Shown one piece after another: positions 1 to 16,779 of a DNA stretch of 64,000 bases. Source of the stretch: Gammaproteobacteria bacterium (lineage in GTDB: Bacteria; Pseudomonadota; Gammaproteobacteria; Burkholderiales; Gallionellaceae); the NCBI GenBank assembly GCA_018813765.1, contig JAHJBC010000007.1, positions 1 to 64,000 on the forward strand, read 5' to 3'. How positions within the stretch are numbered: position 1 is the first letter of the stretch; each line of letters starts with the position of its first letter. The translations under genes and the position numbers were made by a program. Below the pieces are notes generated by a model, which was not told the DNA's origin, did no database searches, and saw nothing but the letters and a program-made list of their open reading frames with translations.

Positions 1-206
1 ACAGCCCAACATGACCGTTTGTAGTTTAGCAGTCCTTCACCTTCTCGCACGATGCACGCAGCGCGACAGAAAACGAAACGGAGAATGGCAATGAACTAGA
101 AAATCAAAACCGGTTGTGAATTTGGGGAAGCCCTTGTAGTGAAGATAAGGGGTTGCGCTTTAGAGAGTACGAAATGTACCGGAGTCACCCTCTTTTGCCT
201 ACACCC
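1..206. other. gene-free left edge
   Basis: I see no convincing coding region here. It lies downstream of the radical SAM gene, which is read leftwards, so it may hold that operon's 3' end or lead into further pigment genes outside the window. No clear hairpin with a T-tract was found. Confidence 0.4.
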
Positions 207-1823
207 TTACTCCTCGCTCATCTCCGCACTCTGCTCCGGTACATCCGCCGCTTTCTTCAGCACGCTCACCGGCACGCTGACCTTCACGGTCGAGACCTTG
301 TCGGCATACAGTTCCTCGCCCAGCAGCGGCACAAGGTTGGTGGGTTGGCGCGGGTGTTTGGGGAAGTTCTGTTTGATCTCTTCGAGCCGTTTCTGGTTGG
401 CGCTGAAGTAGCGGTTGGCCTGGATGACCTGCGGGATGTGCTTGATCAGGTGCCACAGGCTCCAGCGGTGTTGCCACAGCCGCTTGGCGAAAGTGCGGTG
501 ATAGGTCTTGCTGTTGTAGAAGCGCAGGATGTGCCAGTTGTAGAGCGCGTCCATCTCTTCGCGCGATTTGAATCCCTTGGGCAGGAACACGAAGTTGAGG
601 CAGTTGAGCAGGCGCCAGTCTTCGATGAAGTCGCCCTCCTCGCCACTCACGCATTCGTCCCAGATCGGCGCGCCGTAAAGCGGGCTGAACTTGGTCATGT
701 TCATCTCGTCGAGATTGAGCGAGAGGATGAAGTCGCTGGTGGTCTTCACCGTCTCCGGCGTCTCGCCCGGCATGCCGAAGATGAACAGGCCCTTCGCGCG
801 CAGCCCGGCGGCGTGGATCTGCTCCACGGTTTTCTTCACTGCTTCCAGCGTCACGCCCGCCTTGTGCCGCTCCATCATCGCGGGGTCGGCGGATTCCACG
901 CCCATGGACACCATCAGCGCGCCCGCCTGTTTGAGCTTCTGCAGCATCTCGTCCGAGGTGTGGCCGGTGCGGATGGCGCAGTTGAACTGCATGCCGAGCG
1001 GATTCTTGATGAGCAGTTCGCACAGGTCGAACACGCGCTTCTTCTGCGCGGTGAACAGGTCGTCGTAGAAGTTGATGTGGTACACGCCGAAATTGTCGCG
1101 CAGGTGCTTCATGTGGTCGTAGATGTACTGCGCGGAGTTGACCTTGTACAAGCGCTCGAACACGGTGCGGTCGCAGAACGAGCAGGTGTAGGGACAGCCG
1201 CGCGAGGTGATCATGGTGGCGCCGTGTTTCTTGATGTAGGAGAACAGCGGCAGGTGGTAGGCATCGGGGAAGCCGGCCAGTTTCTCGTAAGCGGGAAAGG
1301 GCAGGTCGTCGAGATTCAAAATGCGCTGGCGGCGCGGGTTGGAGACGATCTTGTCGCCGTCGCGATACACCATGTTGGATATCTGCGCCACCGGCATGCC
1401 ATTGGCGTAATCGAGCAGCGCACCCTCGCCCTCGCCGATGCAAAGGTAGTCGATCTCGGGGAAATGCTCCAGCAGCGGCGCGCCAATGGACGAGGCGTGC
1501 ACGTTGCCGAAGATGATCTTGATGTCAGGACGTTTCTTCTTGATGTAGGAGGACATGTCCACCGCGTCCATGAAGCCGGAGGTGGTGGCGGAGAAGCCGA
1601 TCATCTCGGGGTCGGTCGCCAGCACGATCTCGGCGTTCTCTTCGATGGTGGGCGGCGCGAAGGGGCCGAGGCAGTCGTGCACAGAGGTGGTGTGGCCGTG
1701 CTTGTCCAGCCAGGCGGCGAGCGACAGGATGCCGATGGGCGGCATGCGGTTGGCGAGCACCGAGAAGTCGGGTTGGCCGGGGACGAAGTTGAAACCGGCG
1801 GGGTGGACGAAAGTTATGCGCAT
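207..1823 (-). CDS. B12-binding-type radical SAM protein
   Basis: 538 residues. The N-terminal 140 residues form a Rossmann-like cobalamin-binding-type domain (GNVHASS and CIGEGEGALLDY stretches). The radical SAM core carries the iron-sulfur motif CPYTCSFC (C210, C214, C217), followed by a typical (beta/alpha) barrel (VSMGVESADP, KGLFIFGMPGET). No DxHxxG base-off cobalamin motif is visible, as in BchE-like members. Such enzymes perform radical methylations, cyclisations or rearrangements; the substrate cannot be read from sequence. It is the last gene of the leftward pigment-like operon, separated from the glycosyltransferase gene by 218 bases that hold a dispersed repeat, so it could also be a separate unit. 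The family is certain; membership of the pathway is inference. Confidence 0.85.
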   Translation of the reverse strand: MRITFVHPAGFNFVPGQPDFSVLANRMPPIGILSLAAWLDKHGHTTSVHDCLGPFAPPTIEENAEIVLATDPEMIGFSATTSGFMDAVDMSSYIKKKRPDIKIIFGNVHASSIGAPLLEHFPEIDYLCIGEGEGALLDYANGMPVAQISNMVYRDGDKIVSNPRRQRILNLDDLPFPAYEKLAGFPDAYHLPLFSYIKKHGATMITSRGCPYTCSFCDRTVFERLYKVNSAQYIYDHMKHLRDNFGVYHINFYDDLFTAQKKRVFDLCELLIKNPLGMQFNCAIRTGHTSDEMLQKLKQAGALMVSMGVESADPAMMERHKAGVTLEAVKKTVEQIHAAGLRAKGLFIFGMPGETPETVKTTSDFILSLNLDEMNMTKFSPLYGAPIWDECVSGEEGDFIEDWRLLNCLNFVFLPKGFKSREEMDALYNWHILRFYNSKTYHRTFAKRLWQHRWSLWHLIKHIPQVIQANRYFSANQKRLEEIKQNFPKHPRQPTNLVPLLGEELYADKVSTVKVSVPVSVLKKAADVPEQSAEMSEE

Positions 1824-1841
1824 TTATTTGTTTAAGACAAT

Positions 1842-2000
1842 TTGTCCACGAAAGACACGAAGCGGGGTAAGCAGGCATTTCGCCGCAAGGCGAAAGCTCG
1901 CAAAAGCACGAAAGGAGAACCTGATATTAAAGGCACCGACTGGATGATTAACAATCAATCCAATGCTTTTGTTCGTGACTTTCGTGTATTTCGTGGACAG
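1842..2000. repeat. dispersed intergenic repeat, TTCGTGGACA type (copy 1)
   Basis: An element of about 160 bases bounded by inverted ends: TTGTCCACGAAAGACACGAA on the left and TTTCGTGTATTTCGTGGACA on the right. It contains a further small palindrome (TTTCGCC GCAA GGCGAAA). A second copy lies at 2809-2943. There is no open frame of its own. It probably forms a long hairpin in the operon mRNA between the radical SAM and glycosyltransferase genes. Confidence 0.8.
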
Positions 2001-2041
2001 ACTGGTTTTCCCAAAACCTCGGCTGCTCCTGGCGCAGTATG

Positions 2042-2797
2042 TCAGAACAGTTTCCGCCATATCAACAAGGGCAATCGGATGAGGAAACCGGTGAACAGGC
2101 GCAGGTGCATGCCGGTGAGCAGGATGTTGTCGCGCAGGTAGTTGAAATGCGATACCCCACCCTCGTCGGCGCGGAAATATTTCACAGGCGCATCGACGTT
2201 GATCGGCTTCGCGCCGCACCAGCACAGGCGTACCGCGGCCTCGGGGTCGAAATCGAAATGGCGCATCCAGTAGCTGTTCTCCATCACGCTCAGCAGCATC
2301 TGCGCGGGATAGACGCGGAAACCGTACAGCGAATCGCCTATGCCCTGCCACAGCGTCTCGAAGTTGGCCCACCAGTTGGAGACCTTGCGGCCGCGCACGC
2401 GCAGCAATGGCGCGCTGGCATCGAACACCGGGCGGCCCAGCACCAGTCCGTCGGGGTTGGCGATGGAGACCTGCATGAACTCAGAGATCTTCTCGGGCGG
2501 ATGCTGGCCGTCGGAATCCATGGTCAGCACATGCGTGTAGCCCTCATGCACCGCGATGCGCAGGCCGTGCAGCACCGCCGCGCCCTTGCCGTGGTTATCA
2601 TTCAACACCATCACTCGCAGTTGCGGGTCGATCTCCGCCATCTTCAGCAAACCTTCGGCGGTGCCGTCGGTGCTGCCGTCCACCACCACCCACACCGGCG
2701 ACCATTGTTCGCGCGCCGCGCGCACGGTGTCGTACACCTTGTCGCCGGTGTTGTAGCTGGGGATGAGGACTAAGTGAGTTTTGGAAGGATTCATCAT
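2042..2797 (-). CDS. GT2-family glycosyltransferase
   Basis: 251 residues with the GT-A fold signature of family 2 (dolichyl-phosphate mannose synthase-like). The nucleotide-binding N-terminus is LVLIPSYNTGDK, VVVDGSTDGT follows at about 38-46, and the metal-binding DSD lies at 94-96 in TMDSDGQHP. There are no C-terminal membrane helices as in polyprenol-anchored types, although the end (LFTGFLIRLPLLIWRKLF) is hydrophobic and may be membrane associated. It should transfer a sugar from a nucleotide sugar to a lipid or pigment acceptor. Repeats flank it on both sides. The start at 2797 has an AAGG-type site; Met-2 is an equivalent choice. Confidence 0.88.
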   Translation of the reverse strand: MMNPSKTHLVLIPSYNTGDKVYDTVRAAREQWSPVWVVVDGSTDGTAEGLLKMAEIDPQLRVMVLNDNHGKGAAVLHGLRIAVHEGYTHVLTMDSDGQHPPEKISEFMQVSIANPDGLVLGRPVFDASAPLLRVRGRKVSNWWANFETLWQGIGDSLYGFRVYPAQMLLSVMENSYWMRHFDFDPEAAVRLCWCGAKPINVDAPVKYFRADEGGVSHFNYLRDNILLTGMHLRLFTGFLIRLPLLIWRKLF

Positions 2798-2808
2798 TCA
2801 AACCTTGC

Positions 2809-2943
2809 TTGTCCACGAAAAACACGAAAGGCACGAACAAATTCAAAAGCGCCTTCTGATGGGTAGCATTCGACAGACTGGCAGGTCGAAATCTTGAAAT
2901 GGCGTTTGCCTTCTTTCGTGCTTTTCGTGTCTTTCGTGGACAA
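2809..2943. repeat. dispersed intergenic repeat, TTCGTGGACA type (copy 2)
   Basis: An element of about 135 bases with the same inverted ends as the copy at 1842: TTGTCCACGAAAAACACGAA on the left and CTTTCGTGTCTTTCGTGGAC on the right. The interior differs from copy 1, so only the ends are conserved, as in a MITE or REP-like element. It fills the gap between the PlsC-type and GT2 genes. Confidence 0.8.
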
Positions 2944-2960
2944 AATGATTTTGTTTTTTT

Positions 2961-3710
2961 TCACAACTGCTTCCTCGTCATTTCTTCTCGGTAATACTGT
3001 TCAAGATCGGCGGCGAAGGTCTTGGCATCGGTATCCACCTCGAAGCGTTTGCCCAGCCGCACGGTGTAGCGCAACGGGAATTCGGGTTTGTAGAAGAACG
3101 ACCAGTTCTTGCCGAGGAAGGGGCTGCTCGCTTCGAGGAACACGGTCTGCACCGGCACGCCCGCTTTTTTCGCGACCAGTGCGAAGCCGCCCTTGAATTC
3201 GTTCACCGGCTCGCGCACGGTGCGTGTGCCTTCTGGGAAGATCAGCAGTTGTGCGCCTTCGCGCAGCGCGACACCGGCTTCGCGCACCAGCATGGCGGTG
3301 GAATCGTTGCGCACATATCCCGCCATGCTGGCGCCGCCGCCGAGCAGCGGATTGTCGAGCAGCTTGGCTTTCAGCACGCAGACAAAATTGGGCAGGCGCG
3401 AACCGACCAGCACCACGTCGATCAGTGCCGGATGGTTGGTGACGATGACCAGCGAAGGTTCGTCGCGCAGCGCGTCGAGCGCCTTGAGGTCCAGCTTCAC
3501 CAGACCGCTGGCGCGGATGACGAACAGGTAGAGCCGGAACACCAGCATGATCGCGTAGCGCCCGACGCGCTGGCCGAGGCGATGCGGCAGCAGGTGGCGC
3601 AGCAGGCTGGCGGGCAGGCTCCACGCCAGACAGACGAAGGCGAAGAACAGCAGGCCGCCGTAGAGCACGAGGTATTCATACAGCGATCTGATTTGGCGCC
3701 AGATGATCAT
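2961..3710 (-). CDS. PlsC-type 1-acyl-glycerophosphate acyltransferase family protein
   Basis: 249 residues. It has the acyltransferase block I HX4D motif in NHPALID (H93, D98) and block III FPEGTRT (about 158-164), with one or two N-terminal membrane segments (LVLYGGLLFFAFVCLAWSL). The family acylates lyso-lipids at the inner membrane. The gene starts 3 bases after the MipA-like gene ends. In an aryl polyene cluster it could add the lipid part of the pigment conjugate. A housekeeping plsC is the alternative, but the tight operon position argues for a pathway role. Confidence 0.87.
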   Translation of the reverse strand: MIIWRQIRSLYEYLVLYGGLLFFAFVCLAWSLPASLLRHLLPHRLGQRVGRYAIMLVFRLYLFVIRASGLVKLDLKALDALRDEPSLVIVTNHPALIDVVLVGSRLPNFVCVLKAKLLDNPLLGGGASMAGYVRNDSTAMLVREAGVALREGAQLLIFPEGTRTVREPVNEFKGGFALVAKKAGVPVQTVFLEASSPFLGKNWSFFYKPEFPLRYTVRLGKRFEVDTDAKTFAADLEQYYREEMTRKQL

Positions 3711-3713
3711 GGG

Positions 3714-4544
3714 TCAATCGTATTCCACTTCCACCAGTTCGTCCGACTTGTCGAATATCCAGGTGATGGCGAAGCCGACGGTGAAATATTCCTTGCTCTT
3801 CACCAGCGGGCTGTTCTCGAAGGCCGCGCCTTTGAGACTGTCCCACTTGGCGAAACCGCCGACCCAGTGTCCGGGATAACGCTTGTTGAAGGCAAAGATG
3901 AATTGCGTGCCGGCGTAACCGCCTGGTGCCTCGTAGGCCGGGCGCTCCGCGGTGGCATATTGCGGCGCGACATCGTAGAAGTAGGAATGGTATTGCCGGT
4001 CGGAATAGATCACGCCGCCGACCACACCGATGTTCCAGCCGCTGCGGTCGATGTCGTAGAAATCCAGGTTCAGTTGCGGCTGGAACAGCCAGCCTTCGTG
4101 ATGCACGCGCTTGAAGTCGGAGGCGATGACCGCGCGCAGCGGCATGCGGATGTCGAAGGTATTCTTCTTGTCTTCGGTGTACCAGAGGTGGAAGTTGAGC
4201 GAAGGGCCGACTTCCAGCGTGGGATCAAGGTCGGGCATGCCCCTGCGCGCTTCGGCGCCGTCGGCCGGGACCGAGCCGTTCACACTGACATCCATCTCTA
4301 CCCTGTCCTGCTTGAAGATCAGGCCGCGCACGCGCTCGCGGCTGACCTGCAGCACTTCGCCGTTGTAGACGACATAGGGCGCCGGTAACAAATAGGATTT
4401 GCGTTCGTCCGAGCCGCGGTACATGGGAAAGTCGATGGCCGCGACGCCCGCGCCGATCTCCCACAGCGGCCTGATTTCGGTCTGCGCCTGGGCGGTCGAC
4501 AGACAGCAGAACGACAACAGCGCGCCAGGGATAATCTTCTTCAT
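3714..4544 (-). CDS. MipA/OmpV-family outer membrane protein
   Basis: 276 residues with a signal peptide (MKKIIPGALLSFCCLSTAQA, cleavage after AQA) and the family pattern of beta strands. PMYRGSDERKSYLLPAPYVVY near the N-terminus and the ending FTVGFAITWIFDKS, with alternating polar and hydrophobic residues, are typical of this outer membrane barrel group. Members are adhesins, scaffolds or putative channels. It starts 17 bases after the chorismatase gene stops. In this operon it may help place pigment in the outer membrane; that is inference. Confidence 0.85.
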   Translation of the reverse strand: MKKIIPGALLSFCCLSTAQAQTEIRPLWEIGAGVAAIDFPMYRGSDERKSYLLPAPYVVYNGEVLQVSRERVRGLIFKQDRVEMDVSVNGSVPADGAEARRGMPDLDPTLEVGPSLNFHLWYTEDKKNTFDIRMPLRAVIASDFKRVHHEGWLFQPQLNLDFYDIDRSGWNIGVVGGVIYSDRQYHSYFYDVAPQYATAERPAYEAPGGYAGTQFIFAFNKRYPGHWVGGFAKWDSLKGAAFENSPLVKSKEYFTVGFAITWIFDKSDELVEVEYD

Positions 4545-4561
4545 CGCGACAAACCGGTGCG

Positions 4562-5563
4562 CTAGCGCGCGTCGTTGAAATAAGCGCCCTCGATCTCCAG
4601 CAGCAGGTCGGAACGGCAGATGTTGGAATGCAGATAGACCGCCTGACAGGCCTTGCCGAATTCGGCTTGCACCCTGCTTTGCACCATCGCCAGGTCATGC
4701 TCGTGGCGCACATACACCTTGAGCAGCATGCGTCCCTGGGCGGGATCGTAATGCGGCCCCTGCTGCAGCAAAGTGCGGATGTTGAGCAGGGTCTCGGCTG
4801 TCTGCTTCTCGCTGTCGCCCTGGTGCAGGGTCTCGAAGCCGACGATGCTGGCGGTGCCGGAGATGAAGAAGCAATCCTGTCCGCCCAGTCTCACCGACAG
4901 CGCGCGCACGAAGATCGGGCTCTTGGGACCGAACTGGTCCGGGTACTGATAGGCACTGACCTGGCGCGGATTCTCCACCGCCTTGCCGGGCAACTTGCCG
5001 GCCATGAAATAGATGGTCAGCGATCCGCTGTTGCTGCCCAGCGCGCTGGCGGCGGGCACGTCCTCTTCGCCTATGCTGCGACCGTTGGCGACGAAGGCGC
5101 CATGCCGCCCGACGTTGAAGCCGCGATAACGCTCGAGGCCGTTTTCGTCGTCGTTGATCTGCGGGAAGTAGTGCCAGACGCGCAGCAGGTGGCGGTATTC
5201 GAAATGATCGATGTATTCGAAGATGCGCGTATAAGCCTGCGAGGCCAGTTTTTCCAGCGACTCGCCCGCATGCTGCTGCAGCGTCAGGCTGGCGAACATC
5301 ACCTTTTCGTCGGCCGCCCCGCAGATGCCGTCGCGAACGCACCGTACCGTTGGTGAATCGCTGGTCCAGACTTCAAAGCTGTTGTCGCGCCCACCCAGCA
5401 CCGGGATATCCACCCACAACGGCGCGCATGACAATGCCGGCATCTGCATGCTGCGGCCGAAACCGATCACGCCCAGCACATGCCCCGCGTGGGTTTCGAG
5501 ATATGCGCCGATCTCATCGGCATCGAGATAGGCCAGCCCGAATTGCGTGCTGCTACTGTCCAT
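4562..5563 (-). CDS. xanB2-like: chorismatase of the FkbO/Hyg5/XanB2 family
   Basis: 333 residues. Family blocks are visible in order: RVWHYFPQIND (128-138), RYRGFNVGRHGAF (145-157), SNSGSLTIYF (177-186), SGTASIVGFE (235-244) and the QTAETLLNIR segment (254-263) with the conserved glutamate. Characterised members hydrolyse chorismate to a dihydroxycyclohexadiene acid (FkbO) or to 3-/4-hydroxybenzoate plus pyruvate (Hyg5, XanB2); XanB2 supplies the aryl head group of xanthomonadin. Product type cannot be decided by eye. It overlaps the halogenase-like gene by 11 bases and has a GGAG site, so it is co-translated with it. This gene is the main reason for calling the locus xanthomonadin-like. Confidence 0.85.
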   Translation of the reverse strand: MDSSSTQFGLAYLDADEIGAYLETHAGHVLGVIGFGRSMQMPALSCAPLWVDIPVLGGRDNSFEVWTSDSPTVRCVRDGICGAADEKVMFASLTLQQHAGESLEKLASQAYTRIFEYIDHFEYRHLLRVWHYFPQINDDENGLERYRGFNVGRHGAFVANGRSIGEEDVPAASALGSNSGSLTIYFMAGKLPGKAVENPRQVSAYQYPDQFGPKSPIFVRALSVRLGGQDCFFISGTASIVGFETLHQGDSEKQTAETLLNIRTLLQQGPHYDPAQGRMLLKVYVRHEHDLAMVQSRVQAEFGKACQAVYLHSNICRSDLLLEIEGAYFNDAR

Positions 5564-6878
5564 ATGTCTCCGTCACGGCGACATCGAGTACCTGGATGGA
5601 ACGCTTGCGCTTGAACCAGGCCTTGATGGTGGATGGCAGATGCAGGACCGAACCGGTGTAATACATGAGCTTGAACATGAGCAGCCAGAAGGAATAACGC
5701 TCGGTGCGGTAGACATCGCCGATCAGGATGGAGATCAGCGCCTTCTTCACCTTGCTCTCGGCGCCCTTGTACATGAGCAGGTTGCGCATGGCCGGGGTGG
5801 TGATGCGGTAGATGAACCAGGAGAACACTTTGGGCCCCTGCATGATGGCCTTGTCGAATTCCTTCAGCGCCTGTTCGGCTTCCTGCGGTTTGCTCAGGCA
5901 GCGCTCGACCGCCGTGGCACCGGCGAAGGAACTGGCCATCGCCAGGAACACGCCAGAGGAGAAGATCGGGTCGATAAAAGCGAAGGCATCGCCCAGCAGG
6001 ATGTAGTTCTCGCCGGAGGAACGCTCGGACAGGTAGGAGAAGTTGCCGGTGGCCGTCACCGGCGTTTCCAGCTTGGCATCCTTCATGCGCTCCATCAGCG
6101 CGGGACACATGGCGATGGTGTCCATGAAAAACTGGGTGAGATCGGTCTTACCGCGCGTCTTCATGTAATACGGCCAGCAGGTCGCGCCGATGCTGGTGTT
6201 GCCGTCGGGCAGCGGGATGAACCAGAACCAGCCGTGGTCGAACCAGAACAGGCTGATGTTGCCCTCGACTTCGCCTTCCAGTCGTTTCACGCCGGAGAAA
6301 TGGCCGAACATGGCGGCGCTGTTGTGTTTCTTGTTGCGGTGCTTCATCTGGAAGTGGTTGGACAGGAAGGTGTCGCGGCCGGAGGCGTCCACCACGAATT
6401 TCGTGCGGATGCGCTGTGTCTTGCCGTCCTTGTCCAGCGTATCCACCAGCGCGCCCTCTTTCGGCAGAAACTTGACGTCGGTGACCTTGCATTCCTCAAC
6501 CACGCGCGCGCCCTTGGCGGCGGCATTCTTGAACATGACCTCGTCGAACTCGTCGCGGCGCACCTGGTAGGCGGAAGGCCAGGTGTTATCCAGCGAATCG
6601 TTGAAGTCGATCATCACCGGCGCCGGATGCCAGGGCGAGACGAACTCCGCGCCCAGTTTGACGATGCCGATGCGCTTGATCTCGTCCAGCAAACCGAGCT
6701 CTTCGAACATCGGCATGTTCATCGGCAACAGCGATTCGCCGATATGGAAACGCGGGTGCTTCGATTTTTCCAGCATCAGTACATCGCGTCCCCGCTGCGC
6801 CAGCAGTGCGGCAATGGTGGAACCGGCAGGACCTCCGCCGATGACCAGCACTTCGCACGAAGTTTCCTGCTCTGCCAT
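5553..6878 (-). CDS. FAD-dependent halogenase-like oxidoreductase
   Basis: 441 residues. The N-terminal FAD dinucleotide-binding motif is GGGPAGS (14-20), and the second FAD motif is GDAFAFIDPIFSSG at about 287-300. The flavin halogenase signature WxWxIP is present as WFWFIP (217-222). A lysine in GIVKLGAEF (K75) sits where the catalytic lysine of flavin halogenases is expected. Family members halogenate phenolic or pyrrolic groups, often on a carrier protein; related enzymes are reductases. The gene has a strong AGGAGG site and overlaps the chorismatase start. Halogenation of the aryl head group is the natural inference, as xanthomonadins are brominated; activity is unproven. Confidence 0.8.
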   Translation of the reverse strand: MAEQETSCEVLVIGGGPAGSTIAALLAQRGRDVLMLEKSKHPRFHIGESLLPMNMPMFEELGLLDEIKRIGIVKLGAEFVSPWHPAPVMIDFNDSLDNTWPSAYQVRRDEFDEVMFKNAAAKGARVVEECKVTDVKFLPKEGALVDTLDKDGKTQRIRTKFVVDASGRDTFLSNHFQMKHRNKKHNSAAMFGHFSGVKRLEGEVEGNISLFWFDHGWFWFIPLPDGNTSIGATCWPYYMKTRGKTDLTQFFMDTIAMCPALMERMKDAKLETPVTATGNFSYLSERSSGENYILLGDAFAFIDPIFSSGVFLAMASSFAGATAVERCLSKPQEAEQALKEFDKAIMQGPKVFSWFIYRITTPAMRNLLMYKGAESKVKKALISILIGDVYRTERYSFWLLMFKLMYYTGSVLHLPSTIKAWFKRKRSIQVLDVAVTETYGQ

Positions 6879-6907
6879 GATGCCCTCCTGAAATTTAAAT
6901 GAATTTT

Positions 6908-7288
6908 TTACTCGGCCTTGTTGACCTCGACGCGCGTCAGCAACTGGTCGCCGCCGTAATTGAACGTCAACACGCCCTCACGCTTGTAGGAATACTTGAG
7001 CACCCAGCGATCCGGCCCGAAATAGAACGGGATCGATGCCTTGCCGGTGGGGTGCTGCCACTGCTTGGTGGGTGGGCCGATCAGCTTCACCGCTTGCGCC
7101 AGCGTCATGCCGATCTTGAGTTTGGAGAATTTGCTGCCGGGCGCCGGTTTGCCGACGATCTCGCCCTGCACGGTTTCCTGGGCAGCAGCGGGAGCCTTGG
7201 CGGTGGGCGCGGCCTTATCCTGCTTGGATGCGCAGGCGGACGCCAGCATGGCGGCCATTACGACGGCAATCAGTTGTGCATGTTTCAT
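6908..7288 (-). CDS. SmpA/BamE-like outer membrane lipoprotein
   Basis: 126 residues when started at the ATG preceded by CAGGAG; the longer frame is not needed. It has a lipoprotein signal with lipobox LASAC (lipidated Cys about residue 19), an Ala/Pro linker, then a SmpA/OmlA-like domain: FSKLKIGMTLAQAVKLIGPP and a short beta sheet. That fold occurs in BamE and other small envelope lipoproteins. It lies between the MMPL exporter and the halogenase-like gene. A role in envelope delivery of the product is likely by context only. Confidence 0.75.
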   Translation of the reverse strand: MKHAQLIAVVMAAMLASACASKQDKAAPTAKAPAAAQETVQGEIVGKPAPGSKFSKLKIGMTLAQAVKLIGPPTKQWQHPTGKASIPFYFGPDRWVLKYSYKREGVLTFNYGGDQLLTRVEVNKAE

Positions 7289-7393
7289 TTCTAGCTCCTG
7301 AAAAAGCCACGCCGGACGGCGCGATGGATAATGAAAAAGACCGTTTTGCATCTTAACCGACCCCCCAGTGGCGGGCAACCAAGGTTGCGTGAT

Positions 7394-9718
7394 TCAGTCA
7401 TCTTTCCTGACGATCAGAATGGCGGAAAACACCAGGCTCAGCACCGCCCCGGTCGCCACGGTGGAACCGATGGCGTTGAGCACCGGCGACTGCGAGAACG
7501 ACAGCAGGCCGAAGCCCAGCATGGTGGAGACGTTGGCGAACAACAGCGAAGTGATGGTGCGTTCGCGATCCTGTGCCGAGGTGCAGCGATGATCGAAAAA
7601 CAGTGTGTAATTGGAGCCGACCGCCACCACCAGTAACAAACCGATCAGGTGGAAGATGGACAGCGTGTGTCCGGTGAGCAGCAACAGCGCGGTCACCGTC
7701 ACGACCGCTGCCGCCAACGGCATTGAAATCTCCAGCACGCGCCGGAACGAGCGCAGGCTGACGAACAGCAGCACGACGATGCCCAGCGCACCCAGCAGGG
7801 CATTGCTTGCCGCCTCGTGGCGATAGTCGCGGAACATCTGCTCGGTTTCGCGTTTCATGTCGAGCAACACGAACGGCGCTTCTGTGGCATTGCCGATACC
7901 CCGCTCGATGGCGGGTGCGTCTTTCACGCCGCGCAGCGGCAACATCACCGACCAGCCCTCCTCGCGCCGCACCAGACAGGTATCCAGCTTCAAGCCCAGC
8001 GCCGTCCCTTGCAGCGCCTCGCGATCCAGCAAGGGCTGGCGCTTCGCCGCCGCGATCTCTGCCGCGAACGGCGCAAAGGTCCCGCTGCGGAAAGGCATGC
8101 CGCGCAAGGCTTCGCCCATGTTGCGGCGCAACTCCAACTCGCCCGGCAGTACGGCCTGGCGCGCCAGCTGCGCCTTGCGGCTGGGCAGCGGCGGCGCATC
8201 GTATCCTTGCAGCATGCCCTGCGCCGCCAGATCGCGCAGCACGGCGACCAGTTCCTCGCCCTGCTGCAAAGCGTGCTCCTCGTCGTCGGCACCGGTCACC
8301 AGCATGTAGCGCACATCGGGCGCTCCCATGTCGCGGCGCAACTGCTCGTCCAGCTTCAGCGCCTCCTGCGGGATCGGACTCATGCTGGACAGATTGTCGT
8401 TCCACATGGCATCGCGCTTGAACACCAGAAAGGCGAGTGCAGCAGCCACCACCAGGAAAAGTGCAAGCCGCATGCGCGGCGCGGCGCGCACCAGCGCCAT
8501 CAGCGCGCCGCCCAGCCACGCCGGGGTATGCACAAAGAATCCCTGCGGCAACAGGTGCGGGATCACCAGCCGCGACGTGGCCAGCGCCACGACGAGCCCG
8601 GTGATGGAGAACATGCCGAGTTGCGCCAGCCCGGTGAAGCCGGAGAACAACATGGCAGAGAAACCGCACACCGAGGTCAATACGCCCAGCCGCATGGTCG
8701 GCCAGATGCGCCGCAGCGTGGTTTGCGGGCTGCCGTTGCGCTCGATCTGGGTAAACAGGTAGATGGCGTAGTCCACGCCTTCGCCGATGAGCGTGATGCC
8801 GAAGCCGAGCGTAAGGCCGTGCACGCTGCCGAAACCCAGGCTCACCGCCGCGATACCCGCCAGCGCGCCGCTCGCCACCGGGAACAGGCCCAGCGCCAGC
8901 GCGCGCGGCGAACGGTAAAGCAGCAGCAGCATGCAGGAGATCAGCAGGGTGGCGATGATGGACAGCCGCAGCGCATCGTCGCGGATGGCGGCGCGCGACT
9001 GCACCGAGAACACGCCGGGGCCGGTCATGCGCACCTGTGCGCCTGCCGCCTCAGCATTACCTTTGCGCGCTTCCTCGAACGCGCTGCGGATCGCCAGCAT
9101 GGCGCGTTCCTGCGCGTCGATGTCGTTGCCCGCGCCTCGCGTATGCGCCAGCAACATGGCACGCGAGCCGTCGCCGGAGAACCACACGTCGTCCTGCACC
9201 AGCGGCTGCGCCTGGCCCTGCAACTGTTCGAGCATGTGGATCAGTTCGCCGCTGGGGTCGGTGGGCAGCACGCGCTGCGCCATGCCGCTCATCGGCGTGG
9301 CGAGCAGGTCGAGATAGTAGTTCAGGCTGTCGCGCAGTCCGGCAGCGGAGAAACGCTGCGGCGTGACCGCGTCGCTCAGCAGGTAGCGGTTGTCGCGCAG
9401 CAGTTCGAAGTCCTTCTCCATGCCGACCTGCTCGCCGTTGTTCACCGCAGCGAGTTCCGGCGCGGCGCGCAACTGCTCCGCCATCCTCTTGCTGAGCCCG
9501 GCCAGCACAGGCGCGGGCGCGCCGTCCACGCCGATCAGGATCAGGCGCGACACCACGCCGTCGCGCAACTGCTCGACCATGATCTTCTGCGTGGGGGTGG
9601 GATCGCGCGGCATGAACGCCGACATGTCGGTGGTAAACTGGGTGCGGGCGATGACCAGCACACAGCTCGCGACGAACGCGAGCCAGACCGTCACCGCCAG
9701 ATAGCCGCGCAGTTTCAC
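7394..9718 (-). CDS. MMPL/RND-family exporter
   Basis: 774 residues with the MMPL layout: an N-terminal helix, a periplasmic domain (about 25-240), a bundle of five to six helices (LSIIATLLISCMLLLLY, GFGITLIGEGVDYAIYLF), then a second periplasmic domain and helix bundle. The GxGxDYAIYL segment is the family's central motif. In aryl polyene clusters a protein of this type works with a LolA-like carrier to move the lipid-linked pigment to the outer membrane. It overlaps the LolA-like gene by 4 bases (translational coupling). The 105-base gap to the lipoprotein gene is the largest break in the front part of the operon. Confidence 0.88.
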   Translation of the reverse strand: MKLRGYLAVTVWLAFVASCVLVIARTQFTTDMSAFMPRDPTPTQKIMVEQLRDGVVSRLILIGVDGAPAPVLAGLSKRMAEQLRAAPELAAVNNGEQVGMEKDFELLRDNRYLLSDAVTPQRFSAAGLRDSLNYYLDLLATPMSGMAQRVLPTDPSGELIHMLEQLQGQAQPLVQDDVWFSGDGSRAMLLAHTRGAGNDIDAQERAMLAIRSAFEEARKGNAEAAGAQVRMTGPGVFSVQSRAAIRDDALRLSIIATLLISCMLLLLYRSPRALALGLFPVASGALAGIAAVSLGFGSVHGLTLGFGITLIGEGVDYAIYLFTQIERNGSPQTTLRRIWPTMRLGVLTSVCGFSAMLFSGFTGLAQLGMFSITGLVVALATSRLVIPHLLPQGFFVHTPAWLGGALMALVRAAPRMRLALFLVVAAALAFLVFKRDAMWNDNLSSMSPIPQEALKLDEQLRRDMGAPDVRYMLVTGADDEEHALQQGEELVAVLRDLAAQGMLQGYDAPPLPSRKAQLARQAVLPGELELRRNMGEALRGMPFRSGTFAPFAAEIAAAKRQPLLDREALQGTALGLKLDTCLVRREEGWSVMLPLRGVKDAPAIERGIGNATEAPFVLLDMKRETEQMFRDYRHEAASNALLGALGIVVLLFVSLRSFRRVLEISMPLAAAVVTVTALLLLTGHTLSIFHLIGLLLVVAVGSNYTLFFDHRCTSAQDRERTITSLLFANVSTMLGFGLLSFSQSPVLNAIGSTVATGAVLSLVFSAILIVRKDD

Positions 9719-10287
9719 TGCGTTTCCCCGATCACGGTCATGGTCGAATGGTCACCGTTGGCTTCCAGCATCTCGATGGCTGTCACGCGATCGCCGTGGC
9801 CGGAGATGACAATCTCCTTCACCATGGCGCGTGTCCTGTCTTCCAGCGGCAGCAGCTTCATGCGCCACTTCGCCGCCCCGCCTTTCAGTTCGACCTTATA
9901 AAAGCGTTGCAGCATGGGCAAATCGCCCGCCAGGGTGGAACGTATGCTTTCGACGAAGGCCCACACCGCCGGATACTGTTGCACCACCAGCGTGCGCTTG
10001 ATGTTGCGCGCCTTGTTCTCGATGGTGAGCACGCCCTGATCCAGCACAAGAGTCTCGTCCTTGGGCTCCAGCGTGTGTTTTTCCAGATGGTCGGGCGCGC
10101 GGAACGACAGCGTACCGGAAGAAGTCAGCGGCACATCCAGCACGGCGAGGTGCTTGCGCTCGACGAATTTGCCCTGCGAAGTCTGCACCTGCGCCAGACT
10201 CTGCATCAATTGCGGCAGTCCCCATTCCTCGGCACTCGCGGGAAGGACGAACAGAGCGGCCAGCAATATCAGGATGCGCATATTCAC
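9715..10287 (-). CDS. LolA-like outer membrane lipoprotein carrier
   Basis: 190 residues with a cleavable signal peptide (LLAALFVLPASAEE). The body matches the LolA-like clade found in pigment clusters: a half-barrel with QGKFVERKHLAVLDVPLTSSGTLSF rewritten from the LolA lipid-binding start, plus SGHGDRVTAIEML. It should ferry a hydrophobic product across the periplasm. It overlaps the acyltransferase gene upstream by 4 bases (ATGA) and the MMPL gene downstream by 4. A housekeeping lolA is unlikely, because of this context and sequence divergence. Confidence 0.82.
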   Translation of the reverse strand: MNMRILILLAALFVLPASAEEWGLPQLMQSLAQVQTSQGKFVERKHLAVLDVPLTSSGTLSFRAPDHLEKHTLEPKDETLVLDQGVLTIENKARNIKRTLVVQQYPAVWAFVESIRSTLAGDLPMLQRFYKVELKGGAAKWRMKLLPLEDRTRAMVKEIVISGHGDRVTAIEMLEANGDHSTMTVIGETQ

Positions 10288-11201
10288 TTCCAGAAGTCGA
10301 AAAAGTTGAACCAGTTGTACGGGGCCTCTCGGCAGAAATGCTCGATACGCGCCACATAGCGCGATTGTGCCTGACGGATCAGTTCGTTGCGCGGCAATCC
10401 GGCATCGGCCATGTCCGCCAGTTCCTCGAAATACAGGTCATAGCGGTTGCCGCCGCGATAGACGCCGACCATCAGCAGCACCGGGCTCTTCAGCATATAA
10501 GCCATGCGCAGCGGGCCGGTGGGGAATTTAGCCGCTTCGCCGAGGAAATCGAAGGTCGCGCTCGCGCCGCCGTGTTCCAGACCGCGGTCGGCGAGGATGC
10601 CGATGAACTCGCCGCGCTGCAACGCCTGCTCCACCTTGAGCATGGAATCGACCTTGCCCAGCGCGATCACCTGCTGCGTCAGGTCTGGATTGATCGCCTT
10701 CAGCACCGAGTTGAGCTTGCGTGCGTTCTCCTCGTACATCACCACGCTGGCAGGCGGCCCCTGTATCTGGTCGGCATAGGCGCGCATGATCTCGAAACTG
10801 CCCAGATGCGCGCCGAGCAGGATGCAGCCGCGCTTGCTGGCGATCATCCTCTGCGCGGCATCGTCCAGATGCACGCGCACGTCGAACTTGTCGAAGCGGC
10901 CGTTGAGCAGGAACACGCGATCAAGAATGGTGGAGGCAAAGGTATGGATGTGGCGAAAGCCGTCGCCGATACGGGCTTCGCGCCCCAGCACCTTGCGCAG
11001 ATATTTGCGCGACGACCTGCGCGCCTCTGCGGCGAATATAAAGAAATAGAGGCAGATCGGATACAGGAACAGGCGCGCAACGCGACGCCCCAGCGTTAGC
11101 GCGACCCAGACGATGAAGCGGATGGCCAGCGTGTTGCTGCGTTCCGGCCGCGCGGCCCACTCCGTCGCGGACTTTTCCGGGATATTGTCAGACGTTCGCA
11201 A
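10284..11201 (-). CDS. LpxL/HtrB-like lysophospholipid acyltransferase family protein
   Basis: 305 residues. An N-terminal membrane anchor (LFLYPICLYFFIFAAE) precedes the catalytic HX4E motif in GAHLGSFE (H132, E137), the hallmark of the lipid A late acyltransferase family. A later GILADRGLEHG segment and PTGPLRMAYML are also typical. Aryl polyene clusters usually encode one such enzyme, thought to attach the polyene acyl chain to a lipid or sugar acceptor. It overlaps the dehydratase gene by 14 bases. The first Met at 11201 is used, as no better internal start is visible. Confidence 0.85.
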   Translation of the reverse strand: MRTSDNIPEKSATEWAARPERSNTLAIRFIVWVALTLGRRVARLFLYPICLYFFIFAAEARRSSRKYLRKVLGREARIGDGFRHIHTFASTILDRVFLLNGRFDKFDVRVHLDDAAQRMIASKRGCILLGAHLGSFEIMRAYADQIQGPPASVVMYEENARKLNSVLKAINPDLTQQVIALGKVDSMLKVEQALQRGEFIGILADRGLEHGGASATFDFLGEAAKFPTGPLRMAYMLKSPVLLMVGVYRGGNRYDLYFEELADMADAGLPRNELIRQAQSRYVARIEHFCREAPYNWFNFFDFWK

Positions 11202-11487
11202 CGACAGCTCCTGTCAGGACTTTGTTGCCCGCGACCGTGCAGGTGAATTCGATGGTGCCTTTGGCTGTGCGCGTATGCTCGATCTCGACCGTATCGCCCG
11301 GCCGCGCCGGCGCGAGGAACTTGGCGTTCTTCACGTTGCACGAGACAAAGCTCGCGCCCTCGGCGCGTTCGATGCAGCGCAACACCTCGGCCAGCAGCAG
11401 CGCGCCGGGGATGATGGGATTGCCGGGGAAATGCCCGGCGCCGGTGGGGTGGTCGGCTGGAAATCGCAGGGTGAGCTTGCTCATCAT
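11188..11487 (-). CDS. FabA/FabZ-like 3-hydroxyacyl-ACP dehydratase (ApeI-like)
   Basis: 99 residues, a single hotdog domain. The active-site motif GHFPGNPIIPGALLL contains the His expected of FabZ-type dehydratases. It would remove water from the beta-hydroxyacyl intermediate during polyene chain growth. The start overlaps the ligase stop in ATGATGA; either of the two consecutive ATGs (11487 or 11484) works. It is shorter than FabZ (about 150 residues), as the pathway-specific ApeI-like proteins are. Confidence 0.82.
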   Translation of the reverse strand: MMSKLTLRFPADHPTGAGHFPGNPIIPGALLLAEVLRCIERAEGASFVSCNVKNAKFLAPARPGDTVEIEHTRTAKGTIEFTCTVAGNKVLTGAVVANV

Positions 11488-12812
11488 CGTTTCGCGCACT
11501 GCTCTCTCAGCCGCAACAGCGATTCGCGCGTGAGCTTGCCGGTGCTGTTGCGCGGCAGCGCTTCGACGAGATACAGCGGGCGCGGCAGGAACACCGCATC
11601 CATGCTGGTGCGCAGCGCATCCAGTATCCGCTTTGAGTCCACCCCGGGAGCGACCACGAAGGCCAGCGGACGCGTCACCGCGCCGTCACCGTCATCGGGC
11701 ATCAGGAACACGCCGTCCTGCACGCCGGGAATGGAGTTGAGGTGATGGTTGAGACTGGCCAGCGAAGTGCGCTTGCCGGCGATATTCACCATGTCGGCGG
11801 TGCGCCCGTGCAGGATGAAGGTGCCGTCAGGGTTACGTTCGATTACGTCGGAGAGCGGCGCCTCGATCTCGACATGGCCGCCGTGCACGCGGGCGCCCTG
11901 TGCATCCTGCTCCATCGTCACGCCGGGCAGCAGGTGCCAGGCCGCGCCTTGCGTGGTGCGGCGGCTCGCCACCATGCCCGCCTCGGTGCAGCCGTAGATC
12001 TCATACAACGGCGCGCCGAAACGCGCTTCCGCTTCTGCGGCCAGTTGCGGCGCGAGCGGCGCAGTCGCGCACAGCACGAAGTCGACCGGCGGCACTTGCG
12101 CCACTTCCGCCAGCAGGGTGCGCAGGTGCACCGGCGTGGTGATCATGCAGCGCGAACGCGGCAAAGCCGACAGCGCGGCACAGATGTCCGCCGGATAGAA
12201 CGGCCGCTCGGCCACCAGCGCCAGACCGTTCTGCATGGCCAGCAGCATGCTCGATTCCAGCCCATACATGTGCTGCGCAGGCACCGTGCCCAGCACCGCC
12301 ATGCCCGAGTCCGGCACGATGCCGAGGCGCTGCGCTTCGGCGACCGCACCGCGACACAGGCTGCCCCAGGATTTGGCGTGCGCCACCGGGTCGCCGGTGG
12401 AGCCGGAGGTGAACACGAGTGCGGCCTGCTGCTGCTCGTCGATCTGCGGGATAGCGCCGGGCGCAGTACCCGCGAACGAGGCCGGGAACGGAACGATCTC
12501 GATACCGGGCAACTCGGTTGCGCCATCGGTCAGACAATAAAGGTCGGGATAACGCTGGCCCAGGCGCGCGACGAAGTCGGCGGTGTAGTTGGGCGGCAAC
12601 AGACTGGTCTGGCCGCGCAACAGCGCGGCGGCGAAGCCGACAGCAAAACGATAGCGGTCGGTGCACAGGTTGAGGATGTGGGATCTGGCCGGCAGGGAAG
12701 CGGCGAGCTGGTCGACATCGCGCAGGAAATGCGCGACCGTGACCAGCTGTCCGCCGCGCCACGCAAAAATGCCGGCGGGGTCGTGGTGTCGGATGAGCGG
12801 AATGCCTGCCAT
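11484..12812 (-). CDS. AMP-dependent acyl/aryl ligase (ApeH/XanA2-like)
   Basis: 442 residues of the ANL adenylating superfamily. The phosphate-binding motif is LVFTSGSTGDP, the A5 motif YEIYGCTEAG, and the C-terminal catalytic lysine motif NSTGKLTRESLL. It is about 100 residues shorter than acetyl-CoA synthetases, as pigment-cluster ligases are. Expected reaction: activate a hydroxybenzoate-type starter with ATP and load it on an acyl carrier protein. The partner chorismatase at 4562 could make that substrate. It starts 11 bases after the COG4648 gene stop, with only a weak AAGG site. Confidence 0.83.
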   Translation of the reverse strand: MAGIPLIRHHDPAGIFAWRGGQLVTVAHFLRDVDQLAASLPARSHILNLCTDRYRFAVGFAAALLRGQTSLLPPNYTADFVARLGQRYPDLYCLTDGATELPGIEIVPFPASFAGTAPGAIPQIDEQQQAALVFTSGSTGDPVAHAKSWGSLCRGAVAEAQRLGIVPDSGMAVLGTVPAQHMYGLESSMLLAMQNGLALVAERPFYPADICAALSALPRSRCMITTPVHLRTLLAEVAQVPPVDFVLCATAPLAPQLAAEAEARFGAPLYEIYGCTEAGMVASRRTTQGAAWHLLPGVTMEQDAQGARVHGGHVEIEAPLSDVIERNPDGTFILHGRTADMVNIAGKRTSLASLNHHLNSIPGVQDGVFLMPDDGDGAVTRPLAFVVAPGVDSKRILDALRTSMDAVFLPRPLYLVEALPRNSTGKLTRESLLRLREQCAKR

Positions 12813-12823
12813 GAACCTGGACC

Positions 12824-13480
12824 TTAACGCTCGCTATCGGCCTTCTTGGGCGCGGCAAAATCCCGGCTGTAAACCTCGATCGCTTTCAGGATGGAAGTCT
12901 TGGGATGATTGGGGAAACGCAACGTACGATAAGCCTTCTCGGCCACGAACATGAGGATCAGCAGCGGCAGGTTCAGCACGTTGATGAAGAAAGACCATGC
13001 GGAAAGCGGCGCGAACAGGTACAGCAGCAGCGACACCGTCACCTGCCCGGCAAAATAGCCACACCATGCGATGGTGACTTTGCGGGTGTAATCGACCACC
13101 TCGGGTTTGAGCTCGCCGTTGATGTGGCGCGAGATCTGCGAGATCAGCGGCTCGCGCCCGCGAAAGAGTGTGCGACCGAACAGCCACAGCAGGAACAGGT
13201 TGAGGGTGGCATGCGACAGGCCATTCACCGCAAGCAGGCCGATGCGGCCGTAGTCGCTGGTCACGATGAAATAGATTGCGCCAAGGAACGCCAGCGCCAG
13301 CAACGGCCACCAGACCTTGCCCGCGATGCGGAACAGCACCCAGGCCGCGACGATCAACAAGGGCGCGAACACAAACATCAACTGCCACATCTCCACCTCA
13401 TCCTTGAGGATAAACACATGCAACAGGATGGGATAAGCGATGAACGCAGCCAGCAGCAGAAACTTGCCCACTTTCCCCAT
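12824..13480 (-). CDS. COG4648-type multi-pass membrane protein
   Basis: 218 residues from the ATG that follows GGAG at good spacing; the longer frame begins with a TTG lacking a site. About six membrane helices can be read (KFLLLAAFIAYPILLHVFIL, LMFVFAPLLIVAAWVLF, LLALAFLGAIYFIV, LNLFLLWLFGR, YFAGQVTVSLLLYLFAP, FINVLNLPLLILMFV). Proteins of this kind recur as the first gene of aryl polyene clusters with no known function. Here it is the first gene of the operon, facing a divergent methyltransferase gene 238 bases away. That gap holds a GGGCGG/CCGCCC inverted repeat (13592-13618) but no promoter I can defend. Confidence 0.75.
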   Translation of the reverse strand: MGKVGKFLLLAAFIAYPILLHVFILKDEVEMWQLMFVFAPLLIVAAWVLFRIAGKVWWPLLALAFLGAIYFIVTSDYGRIGLLAVNGLSHATLNLFLLWLFGRTLFRGREPLISQISRHINGELKPEVVDYTRKVTIAWCGYFAGQVTVSLLLYLFAPLSAWSFFINVLNLPLLILMFVAEKAYRTLRFPNHPKTSILKAIEVYSRDFAAPKKADSER

Positions 13481-13718
13481 TACGCGCTCCGGAATAGCTG
13501 CCGCAGGGAGGGGTGGCAATCACGCAATGTGATGCTTCCCGCGACTGATTTTCTGTGATTGGACTGCAAGGTATGTCCCCGATCGATTTCAGGGCGGCAT
13601 TCTACTCTGAAACCGCCCGTCCCGCCCCGGACACAAGGACAGGTCGGCATCATTCACGCACGTTTCGGCGAAATTTCAGTTAGCATTGCCGCATAACAAT
13701 CCGGACAGAAATCTGCCC

Positions 13719-14489
13719 ATGACATCCCGTTCCAGTGAAACAACCGGCGCCGTCGTCCACGCCCCGCACCCCCCGCTCACCGAGTACTACCAAAGCGAAG
13801 AAGACCGCCGCGAGTGGGTCGGCGAGCAATTCGACAAGACCGCCGCCGACTACGACCGGGTGGAAAAGATCCTCGGCCTTGGCACCGGCCCGTGGTATCG
13901 CCGCAAGATGCTGGAAGTCGCCGGCCTGAAACCCGGCATGCGCATCCTCGATGTCGGCATGGGCACCGGACTGGTGGCGAAACAGGCCGCCGCCATCCTC
14001 GGCGATGCCAGTCTGGTCACCGGCGTCGATCCCAGCGCGGGCATGATCCGCAACGCCAAGCTGCCCGTCGGCGTGACCGTGATCGAAGGCCGCGCCGAAC
14101 TGATCCCGCTGCCCGCCGCCGGTTACGACTTCCTCAGCATGGGCTACGCCCTGCGCCATGTATCCGACATGTCGGTCGCCTTCGCCGAATTCCACCGCGT
14201 GCTGAAACCCGGCGGCAAGGTCTGCATCCTCGAGATCACCCCGCCCAAAGGCAAGATCGCCACGGCATTGCTGAAGGGCTACTGCAAATACGCCGTGCCC
14301 ATGCTGGCCAAACTTGTCGCCCGGGACAAGGACACTGCGCAATTGTGGCGTTACTACTGGGACACCATCGAAGCCTGCGCCGTGCCGGAGCAGGTGATGG
14401 CGACGCTGGAGAGTGCCGGGTTCGTGAATGTGCGGCGGACGGTGGATGTGGGGATGTTTTCTACTTATCTGGCGGAGAAACCGCAGTAG
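13719..14489 (+). CDS. class I SAM-dependent methyltransferase, UbiE/COQ5-like
   Basis: 256 residues from the ATG at 13719; an upstream TTG in frame has no better site. Motif I ILDVGMGTGLVAKQAA binds S-adenosylmethionine, followed by GVDPSAGMI, and RHVSDMSVAFAEFHRVLKPGGKV is the UbiE/COQ5 motif region. It could act on a quinone precursor. Its place, divergent from the pigment operon, also allows a role in methylating the aryl head group, as aryl polyene clusters often carry a methyltransferase. The sequence does not decide between them. Confidence 0.75.
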   Translation: MTSRSSETTGAVVHAPHPPLTEYYQSEEDRREWVGEQFDKTAADYDRVEKILGLGTGPWYRRKMLEVAGLKPGMRILDVGMGTGLVAKQAAAILGDASLVTGVDPSAGMIRNAKLPVGVTVIEGRAELIPLPAAGYDFLSMGYALRHVSDMSVAFAEFHRVLKPGGKVCILEITPPKGKIATALLKGYCKYAVPMLAKLVARDKDTAQLWRYYWDTIEACAVPEQVMATLESAGFVNVRRTVDVGMFSTYLAEKPQ

Positions 14490-14515
14490 GGCTTGGTCTT
14501 ATTGACCACATAGGA

Positions 14516-14845
14516 CCGTTCGTCCTGAGTAGGCGTAGCCGTATCGAAGGATGGGCGAAGCCCGCTGGTTTTCAAATTCAAAACCAACACCGTCGGGGGT
14601 TGCCCGACAGCAAGTCACTTTTCTCGTCTTGCCGAGAAAAGTAACCAAAAGAGGGCGCCCCCGGTGCGCCGCCCCTTCGGGGTTCCCTGCGTTGCTCGAC
14701 TGGTCAGGCGGCTGCGGAACTCGCGCTACGCGCTCAGACAGTCCTCGCCGAAATCCCCTGACCAGTCTCCGCTACTCGGCGGACGCACAGGGGAGGGAAC
14801 GTCAAAACCTAAAACCACAGCGTGAGCACTTCGTGCCCACGCTGC
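14516..14845 (+). repeat. large dispersed repeat, copy A
   Basis: It begins TCGTCCTGAGTAGGCGTAGC and runs through TCGAAGGATGGGCGAAGCCC and CGTCGGGGGTTGCCCGACAG, then a hairpin around GAAAAGTAACC, a GC-rich block (CGCCGCCCCTTCGGGGTTCC) and a final stem-loop at 14819-14843 (AGCGTG...CACGCT). Reversed, the same order occurs at 15430-15682. Compared with that copy it has an extra segment of about 80 bases whose ends (ACTGGTCAGG and CCTGACCAGT) are inverted repeats. The last stem-loop lies just past the stop of the 14868 gene and could end its transcript. Confidence 0.85.
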
Positions 14846-14867
14846 TTGGATATGTGTAAAGCAACTG

Positions 14868-16748: not shown

Positions 16749-16779
16749 GGGGGAGCGGATCAGGCTTTGCTCGAACCGT

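Follow-up and report, generated by a model that had tools for sequence, protein, structure and literature searches.

A probable arcuflavin-type pigment locus of Gallionellaceae, found in two pieces, and its association with a B12-binding radical SAM gene

The two halves of a pigment gene set

We present a computational analysis of a 64,000-nucleotide stretch of Gallionellaceae DNA (the window: bases 1-64000 of contig C13, GenBank JAHJBC010000007.1, from a 3.14 Mb genome of 13 contigs that is 99.76% complete) and in particular of the operon of 13 genes at its left end, whose last gene encodes a B12-binding radical S-adenosylmethionine (SAM) enzyme, termed rSAM1. The operon is very probably one half of an arcuflavin-type pathway. 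With equally high confidence, the C13 half is predicted to provide starter formation, activation, tailoring, anchoring and export, and a second half on contig C9 to provide chain elongation and dialkylresorcinol synthesis. The locus is of a known type, lying in two pieces in this assembly, and its variant part is the association with rSAM1.

An earlier reading of the same letters (the original prediction) had described a xanthomonadin-like aryl polyene operon whose ketosynthase (KS), ketoreductase (KR) and acyl carrier protein (ACP) genes were missing from the window and were to be sought either left of base 1 or at the other end of a split locus. Its gene content agrees with ours, and all 13 of its named genes were recovered in the order given there. 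They are open reading frames of the minus strand, the first starting at 13519 (TTG; an alternative ATG lies at 13480) and the last ending at 207. The family of 11 of the 13 genes is supported by domain matches, and NCBIfam matches were obtained for 10 of the 13. The genes of contig C13 are as follows.

12824..13519, minus strand: membrane protein in the COG4648 (ArcU/ApeG) position (open frame, ATG start 13480; genus-mate synteny, 55-85% identity)
11484..12812, minus strand: AMP-forming acyl/aryl ligase, ArcT position (PF00501, E 2.2e-20, above cut-off)
11188..11499, minus strand: short FabA/FabZ-like dehydratase, ArcS/ApeI position (PF07977, E 3.5e-5, barely above cut-off)
10284..11201, minus strand: LpxL-like acyltransferase, ArcR position (PF03279, E 8.2e-11)
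9715..10287, minus strand: LolA-like periplasmic carrier (LolA_3), ArcQ position (PF19574, E 1.1e-18)
7394..9718, minus strand: MMPL/RND exporter, ArcP position (PF03176, E 6.2e-16)
6908..7294, minus strand: small putative lipoprotein, ArcO position (open frame, signal-like start; 56-67% identity in genus-mates)
5553..6878, minus strand: FAD-dependent halogenase-like enzyme of the Trp_halogenase type, ArcA position (PF04820; PDB 3e1t, 8zop, 3i3l)
4562..5563, minus strand: chorismatase of the FkbO/Hyg5 type, ArcB/XanB2 position (PF21168, 125.9 bits, cut-off 27)
3714..4544, minus strand: MipA outer-membrane protein, ArcC position (PF06629, E 4.4e-36)
2961..3710, minus strand: PlsC-type acyltransferase, ArcD position (PF01553, E 2.2e-16)
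2042..2797, minus strand: family-2 glycosyltransferase (GT2), ArcE position (PF00535, E 1.6e-21)
207..1823, minus strand: rSAM1, B12-binding radical SAM enzyme of 538 residues (PF04055 and PF02310 above cut-off)
13686..14489, plus strand: UbiE-like SAM methyltransferase (PF01209, E 1.7e-28)

The genes for chain growth are present on another contig of the same genome, which closes the ketosynthase gap. A genome-wide search returned six KS-family matches (five above cut-off) and three ACP matches. Contig C9 has three of the former and two of the latter, C2 has one of each, and C4 and C10 have a single KS-family match apiece; contig C13 gave no KS or ACP match, as the original prediction had stated for the window. 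The matches on C4 and C10 are weak and each lies close to a contig end, while the C2 match adjoins the ACP match, with weak DarB-query matches there too, and probably belongs to a housekeeping set. The C9 genes fall into two features.

C9:153156-162297, single strand: elongation and dar block with KS, partial KS, dehydratase (DH)-position protein, KR, two ACPs, second KS, small KS-position protein, DarA-position protein, DarB, DarD-position protein and BtrH-type protein
C9:162397-163758 (15398-16759 of locus L007): second B12-binding radical SAM enzyme, distinct from rSAM1, upstream of the C9 ketosynthase

The C9 KS scored 546 bits against NF006618 (cut-off 407), its truncated partner matches PF13723 and the KR is of the FabG type. 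DarB reached 587.1 bits against NF005293, the StlD/DarB family (cut-off 450), and 463.5 bits against the narrower resorcinol DarB model NF053539, which is under the cut-off of 550; the DarA-position protein precedes it. The search thus located KS, KR and ACP genes, together with a dehydratase placed by position, in this genome, and bears out the split locus. The other option, that they lie left of base 1, failed: the window starts with the first base of contig C13, and the assembly does not place the C9 genes next to it. A position just past base 1 was likewise rejected, the C9 cluster having its own flanks and lying about 9 kb from the nearer contig end.

The closest described system is that of Azoarcus sp. 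BH72, in which, according to PMC3949708, arcuflavin (a xanthomonadin-like polyene joined with a dialkylresorcinol) is produced from two unlinked arc loci and a dar locus, and insertion mutants in arcK and arcT, one in each arc locus, are colourless. That paper already lists a predicted arcuflavin-like cluster in Sideroxydans lithotrophicus ES-1. The window shares with BH72 the functions and order of arcU-T-S-R-Q-P-O and arcA-B-C-D-E (PMC3949708 Table 1), and contig C9 shares the KS, partial KS, DH, KR, ACP and dar functions. The original prediction had set apart a distinct lipid, sugar and radical SAM tail; chorismatase, MipA, PlsC and GT2 prove to be the arcA-E block, and the radical SAM gene does stand outside the BH72 table. 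Unlike in BH72, both arc blocks are fused here into one operon ending with the B12 radical SAM gene, the KS, KR and ACP genes are grouped with the dar genes, and the genes listed at these loci, which were the scope of this comparison rather than the whole genome, include no two-component system, antiporter or deacetylase.

Other pigment systems agree less fully. The Xanthomonas xanthomonadin cluster, as described in PMC3949708, has the same chorismatase start, type II elongation and export genes. Xanthomonadins, however, lack a dialkylresorcinol, and the DarB dialkylresorcinol synthase on C9, unneeded for plain xanthomonadin, rules out membership of that class and leaves the aryl polyene label correct in content but incomplete. 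Bacteroidetes flexirubin clusters follow the same logic of polyene plus dialkylresorcinol, with LolA, exporter and DarB-like genes, but differ in that a chorismatase is present here; the NCBIfam flexirubin equivalogs were rejected, with 57.9 bits against a cut-off of 125 for LolA2 (the carrier at 9715..10287) and 287.6 against 340 for FlxB. The Escherichia coli aryl polyene (APE) cluster apeA-R has the functions of apeG-H-I and apeL-M, an acyltransferase and a glycosyltransferase in common with the present genes, whereas a chorismatase, a halogenase, MipA, dar genes and a radical SAM gene are all missing from its Table 1 in PMC8253772.

Certain points weigh against the arcuflavin-type assignment. 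The arc letters were given by function and order rather than by comparison with the BH72 proteins; the DarA-position protein, the C9 DH and the small KS-like protein, all placed by position, had no match in Pfam or NCBIfam, and the DarD-position protein, placed in the same way, had none in Pfam; and rSAM1 is not in Table 1 of PMC3949708, the published BH72 gene table apart from the supplementary ones.

The reactions, all of which we infer, would run as follows. The chorismatase would, by homology, form 3-hydroxybenzoate, which the ligase would load onto an ACP; chain growth to the polyene would fall to the C9 ketosynthase and the truncated one beside it, together with the ketoreductase and the dehydratases; and the UbiE-like enzyme would methylate the ring oxygen. 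DarA/DarB-like proteins would form the dialkylresorcinol, and the polyene acid would be esterified to this and/or to a glycolipid that the PlsC, LpxL-like and GT2 enzymes help to make. The MMPL exporter, LolA-like carrier, lipoprotein and MipA would then carry the pigment to the outer membrane, and rSAM1 could add a further tailoring step in a subset of such pathways. We infer also that both halves continue to work together in this genome.

For individual proteins, the following can be added. The fold family of the chorismatase is established, although its score against TIGR04444 (219.1 bits) is under the cut-off of 325. In alignment with 5ag3 and 4bps it carries SGTAS and ICRSDLL like Hyg5, where FkbO has SATAG and IAREDLL; we take these sites to govern 3-hydroxybenzoate formation, and 3-hydroxybenzoate is its predicted product. 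The alignment of the halogenase-like protein to solved flavin halogenases spans most of its length; arcuflavin, however, carries no bromine, so that halogenation is no more than a candidate activity of the ArcA-position enzyme. The short dehydratase scores under cut-off in the NCBIfam fabZ models. The COG4648-position protein (no match in Pfam or NCBIfam) and the small lipoprotein (none in Pfam) take their labels from position and genus-mate homologs. The UbiE-like gene, beyond the 207-13480 range of the operon, adjoins the COG4648-like gene in most cluster-bearing genus-mates; going by this synteny it belongs to the cluster, and its product is a candidate aryl O-methyltransferase. An Rfam search over bases 1-20000 of the window gave no match, and promoter and terminator scans were near chance level.

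Genus-mates and the division of the cluster

Comparison with a sample of 34 genomes of the genus found a chorismatase in 12, DarB (at least 79% identity) in 9 and full-length rSAM1 in 8. Among the nine having both halves with the dar genes, six (G003, G004, G008, G014, G028 and G029) hold them joined in a single contig with a common arrangement, in which the elongation genes are followed by the dar genes, BtrH, the UbiE-like gene on the opposite strand, the COG4648-like gene, the ligase and so on to GT2 and rSAM1. The halves are separated at contig ends in G007, at one contig end in G005 and within contigs in G000. Arcuflavin-type clusters are accordingly present in 9 of the 34 genomes, and also in Ferriphaselus of the same family (G052), whose halves lie inside two contigs rather than at their ends.

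The joined clusters vary somewhat in content. The cluster region of G004 gave no match for the UbiE-like gene or the second radical SAM gene, no halogenase-like gene was seen in the clusters of G004 and G029, and the G003 contig stops ahead of the rSAM1 position, DarB and chorismatase being present. The second radical SAM enzyme occurs in seven of the eight other genus genomes with both halves (the exception is G004), sitting about 6.5 kb off in G005; within the 10 kb or less that flank rSAM1 on each side in 80 loci from a wider scan, described below, it found one match, at 23% identity. A START-domain gene and a second GT2 gene beside it on C9 had no match in the genus-mate regions, of which those of G029 and G003 are the only ones extending more than 3 kb past that point. 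As a side observation, G011, which has no chorismatase or close DarB match, shows the C-terminal 326 residues of rSAM1 at a contig end (C12:443641-444618).

The break in this genome falls between the BtrH and UbiE-like genes, and neither breakpoint is a contig end. Dispersed inverted repeats occupy both sides.

14516..15683 of contig C13: dispersed inverted repeats on the C13 side of the split, with copies also at C9:151451-153144

This repeat has 44 matching pieces genome-wide. Of 12 intervals searched in the genus-mates, each a gap or an edge, six contain it (G003, G005 on C11, G007 twice, G014 and G029). In these five genomes it occupies the gap between BtrH and UbiE or the contig end next to it; it was not found in the short BtrH-UbiE gaps of G028 and G004. 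Recombination between repeat copies is the simplest explanation of the split. An assembly error at the repeats, with the true chromosome holding a single cluster like that of the genus-mates, appears rather unlikely: it would suit the position of both breakpoints beside a repeat found at the equivalent place in five genus-mates, and the fact that contigs C4, C8 and C11 of the same assembly begin inside a copy, but beyond the repeats both halves run on into other genes within their contigs, the two flanking copies are just about 81% alike over 317 bases, and the Ferriphaselus halves are likewise on two contigs away from the ends.

The radical SAM enzyme rSAM1 and its association with pigment genes

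By its domains, rSAM1 is a member of the B12-binding radical SAM superfamily. A scan of named genomes gave 115 confirmed rSAM1 loci, of which 80 form the locus set used here; 45 of these together with the window protein were aligned (46 sequences, mean column identity 78%), and the CxxxCxxC motif at residues 210-217 has C210, C214 and C217 invariant throughout. Orthologs with 69-95% identity occur in Rhodocyclales, Gallionellales, other Betaproteobacteria, Verrucomicrobia and one Ectothiorhodospiraceae metagenome-assembled genome (MAG). Dechloromonas agitata and Azonexus hydrophilus are among the species with rSAM1, and the second of these has no close DarB. The structure model is of moderate confidence (mean pLDDT 75, pTM 0.79), and its best fold matches in Foldseek are AprD4 at the top, then TsrM, CysS, TokK, MgmA and OxsB, at 16-20% identity. 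Among the NCBIfam matches listed, no curated cut-off was reached; identities as HpnJ (TIGR03471, the best match, 167.2 bits against 577.6) and as BchE (TIGR02026, 144.5 against 481.35) were rejected, domain architecture or fold being what rSAM1 has in common with HpnJ, BchE, AprD4 and CysS.

It can be observed from the neighbourhoods that at least one arc gene lies within 12 kb of rSAM1 in 57 of the 80 loci and at least three in 51, and outside the family of the window the proportion with at least one is 51 of 74. The gene precedes that for the halogenase-like enzyme in 44 loci, follows GT2 in 6, lies between KS and ACP1 in 5 and is placed otherwise in 5, and the remaining 20 show no cluster gene within a distance of 3 kb. 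In a tree of 78 loci and the window (L161 was left out for an internal stop and L173 for its length), the three main placements are largely separate, as Azonexaceae and allies, Gallionellaceae, and Azoarcus/Parazoarcus; L104 and L129, in which rSAM1 also precedes the halogenase-like gene, fall in other parts of the tree, and its deepest forks are poorly supported.

These data bear on a plainer reading, namely that the product is a xanthomonadin-like aryl polyene lipid, the dar genes acting apart and rSAM1 being a passenger. The 20 loci without a cluster gene within 3 kb are in its favour, as is the persistence of the polyene genes, in one piece, in G013 and G024 with neither dar genes nor either radical SAM gene, which also counts against the hybrid pathway. 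We nevertheless regard it as improbable, for the dar genes are embedded between the elongation and the anchoring/export genes in the six joined genus-mates, and rSAM1 lies near arc genes in the 57 loci at several positions.

The arcuflavin-type reading is further supported by co-occurrence. The same 47 rSAM1 genomes, drawn from the 80 loci as a set of 48 less L161, were searched for the exporter and DarB: the exporter was present at 37-66% identity in 40 (in one as two pieces), and DarB at 51% or more in 20, with two further genomes reaching only 38-39%. In an order sample of 399 genomes, rSAM1 was found in 9, the exporter in 80 and DarB in 12. All 9 rSAM1 genomes have the exporter, compared with 80 of 399 overall (Fisher 3.6e-7); when genera are counted, the figures are 5 of 5 and 45 of 158 (p = 0.0016). 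Among the 80 exporter genomes, 7 of the 9 that have DarB also carry rSAM1, as against 2 of the 71 that lack it (Fisher 3.9e-7; by genus, 0.0065, with genera counted by hand). Within the genus of the window, all 8 full-length rSAM1 carriers have DarB and chorismatase, and the chorismatase genomes without DarB (G013, G019 and G024; G019 is 62% complete) are also without rSAM1.

A number of results speak on the other side. The exporter is weak (29-32%) in 4 of the 47 genomes and has no match in 3; 27 of the 47 have no close DarB, so that a constant pairing of rSAM1 with DarB is too strict and was rejected; rSAM1 is missing from 71 of the 80 exporter-positive genomes of the order sample; 23 of the 80 loci show no arc gene within 12 kb (6 of them under 10 kb long); and the genomes are related rather than independent, whereby the Fisher values overstate the association. 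Taken together, rSAM1 goes with the pigment pathway, and in the order sample oftener with the hybrid form, while being neither universal in it nor bound to DarB.

Two observations on single lineages may be recorded here. An rSAM1 ortholog of 86% identity in an Akkermansiaceae MAG contig (L101, 10001-11557) branches beside Gallionellaceae; no pigment gene was found around it and the genome had no exporter match, and either gene transfer or a misbinned contig would account for it. In four genomes, that of Azoarcus sp. Aa7 and three of Aromatoleum (L115, L119, L140 and L146), rSAM1 stands without a nearby arc gene among neighbours common to all four, and the pigment exporter lies elsewhere in each genome.

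Possible role of rSAM1 and short elements in the operon

It is somewhat probable that rSAM1 is a tailoring enzyme, not described before, that serves some of these pathways; a limited search, covering PMC3949708 apart from its supplementary tables, found no description of its association with pigment genes, and none of radical SAM and flexirubin together. As to its reaction, C-methylation is our first guess and sugar chemistry the second.

As a B12-dependent methylase, rSAM1 could place a C-methyl group on the aryl head, on the polyene or on the resorcinol, a proposal we hold tentatively. It is consistent with the B12-binding and radical SAM domains, with the association with DarB in the order sample and with the presence of three methylases, CysS, TokK and TsrM, among the fold matches, CysS having been solved with a pantetheinylated 3-methoxy substrate, which we take to be an aryl group. 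On the opposite side, AprD4, which ranks first among the fold matches, is a dehydratase, and the model is poor at residues 10-25 and in the cluster loop 207-225, so that B12 binding by rSAM1 is putative. Arcuflavin, moreover, has no methyl beyond the explained one (PMC3949708), a point whose weight depends on BH72 having rSAM1.

Action on a lipid-headgroup sugar made by GT2, through an HpnJ-like ring contraction or a deoxygenation, seems unlikely. In its favour, the window protein scores highest with HpnJ among the NCBIfam models, all 46 aligned sequences match that model, AprD4 was solved with the aminosugar paromamine, and GT2 adjoins rSAM1 in six Gallionellaceae loci; the HpnJ score, however, is far under its cut-off, identity to AprD4 is about 20%, and the neighbour of rSAM1 is not GT2 in 74 of the 80 loci.

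A wider proposal, to which we give slightly less than even credence, is that rSAM1 founds an unrecognised family of B12-dependent radical SAM enzymes which serve aryl polyene-type pigments specifically. The gene would have been acquired or retained at several cluster positions, and the enzyme would make a change (C-methylation or ring rearrangement) absent from arcuflavin, xanthomonadin and flexirubin as characterised. Such a family would occur in Gallionellales and Rhodocyclales and also in other Betaproteobacteria and Verrucomicrobia, where the linkage is weaker. Gallionellaceae are low-oxygen iron oxidisers, and a changed pigment possibly suits low-oxygen growth. If rSAM1 is indeed a pigment enzyme, a B12-dependent radical step is added to a very widespread class of pigment clusters, and pigments not yet seen are predicted.

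Two copies of a palindromic short element were noted within the operon.

1842..2000, no strand: palindromic short element in the GT2/rSAM1 gap, with TTGTCCACGAAA-type ends
2809..2943, no strand: second copy in the PlsC/GT2 gap, with TTGTCCACGAAA-type ends

The GT2/rSAM1 gap measures 218 bases here against about 34-96 in seven genus-mates, and the PlsC/GT2 gap 163 bases against 2-26. With up to two mismatches allowed, the end motif has 61 matches in the genome, often as inverted pairs, compared with none for the control, and the elements form a family resembling miniature inverted-repeat transposable elements.

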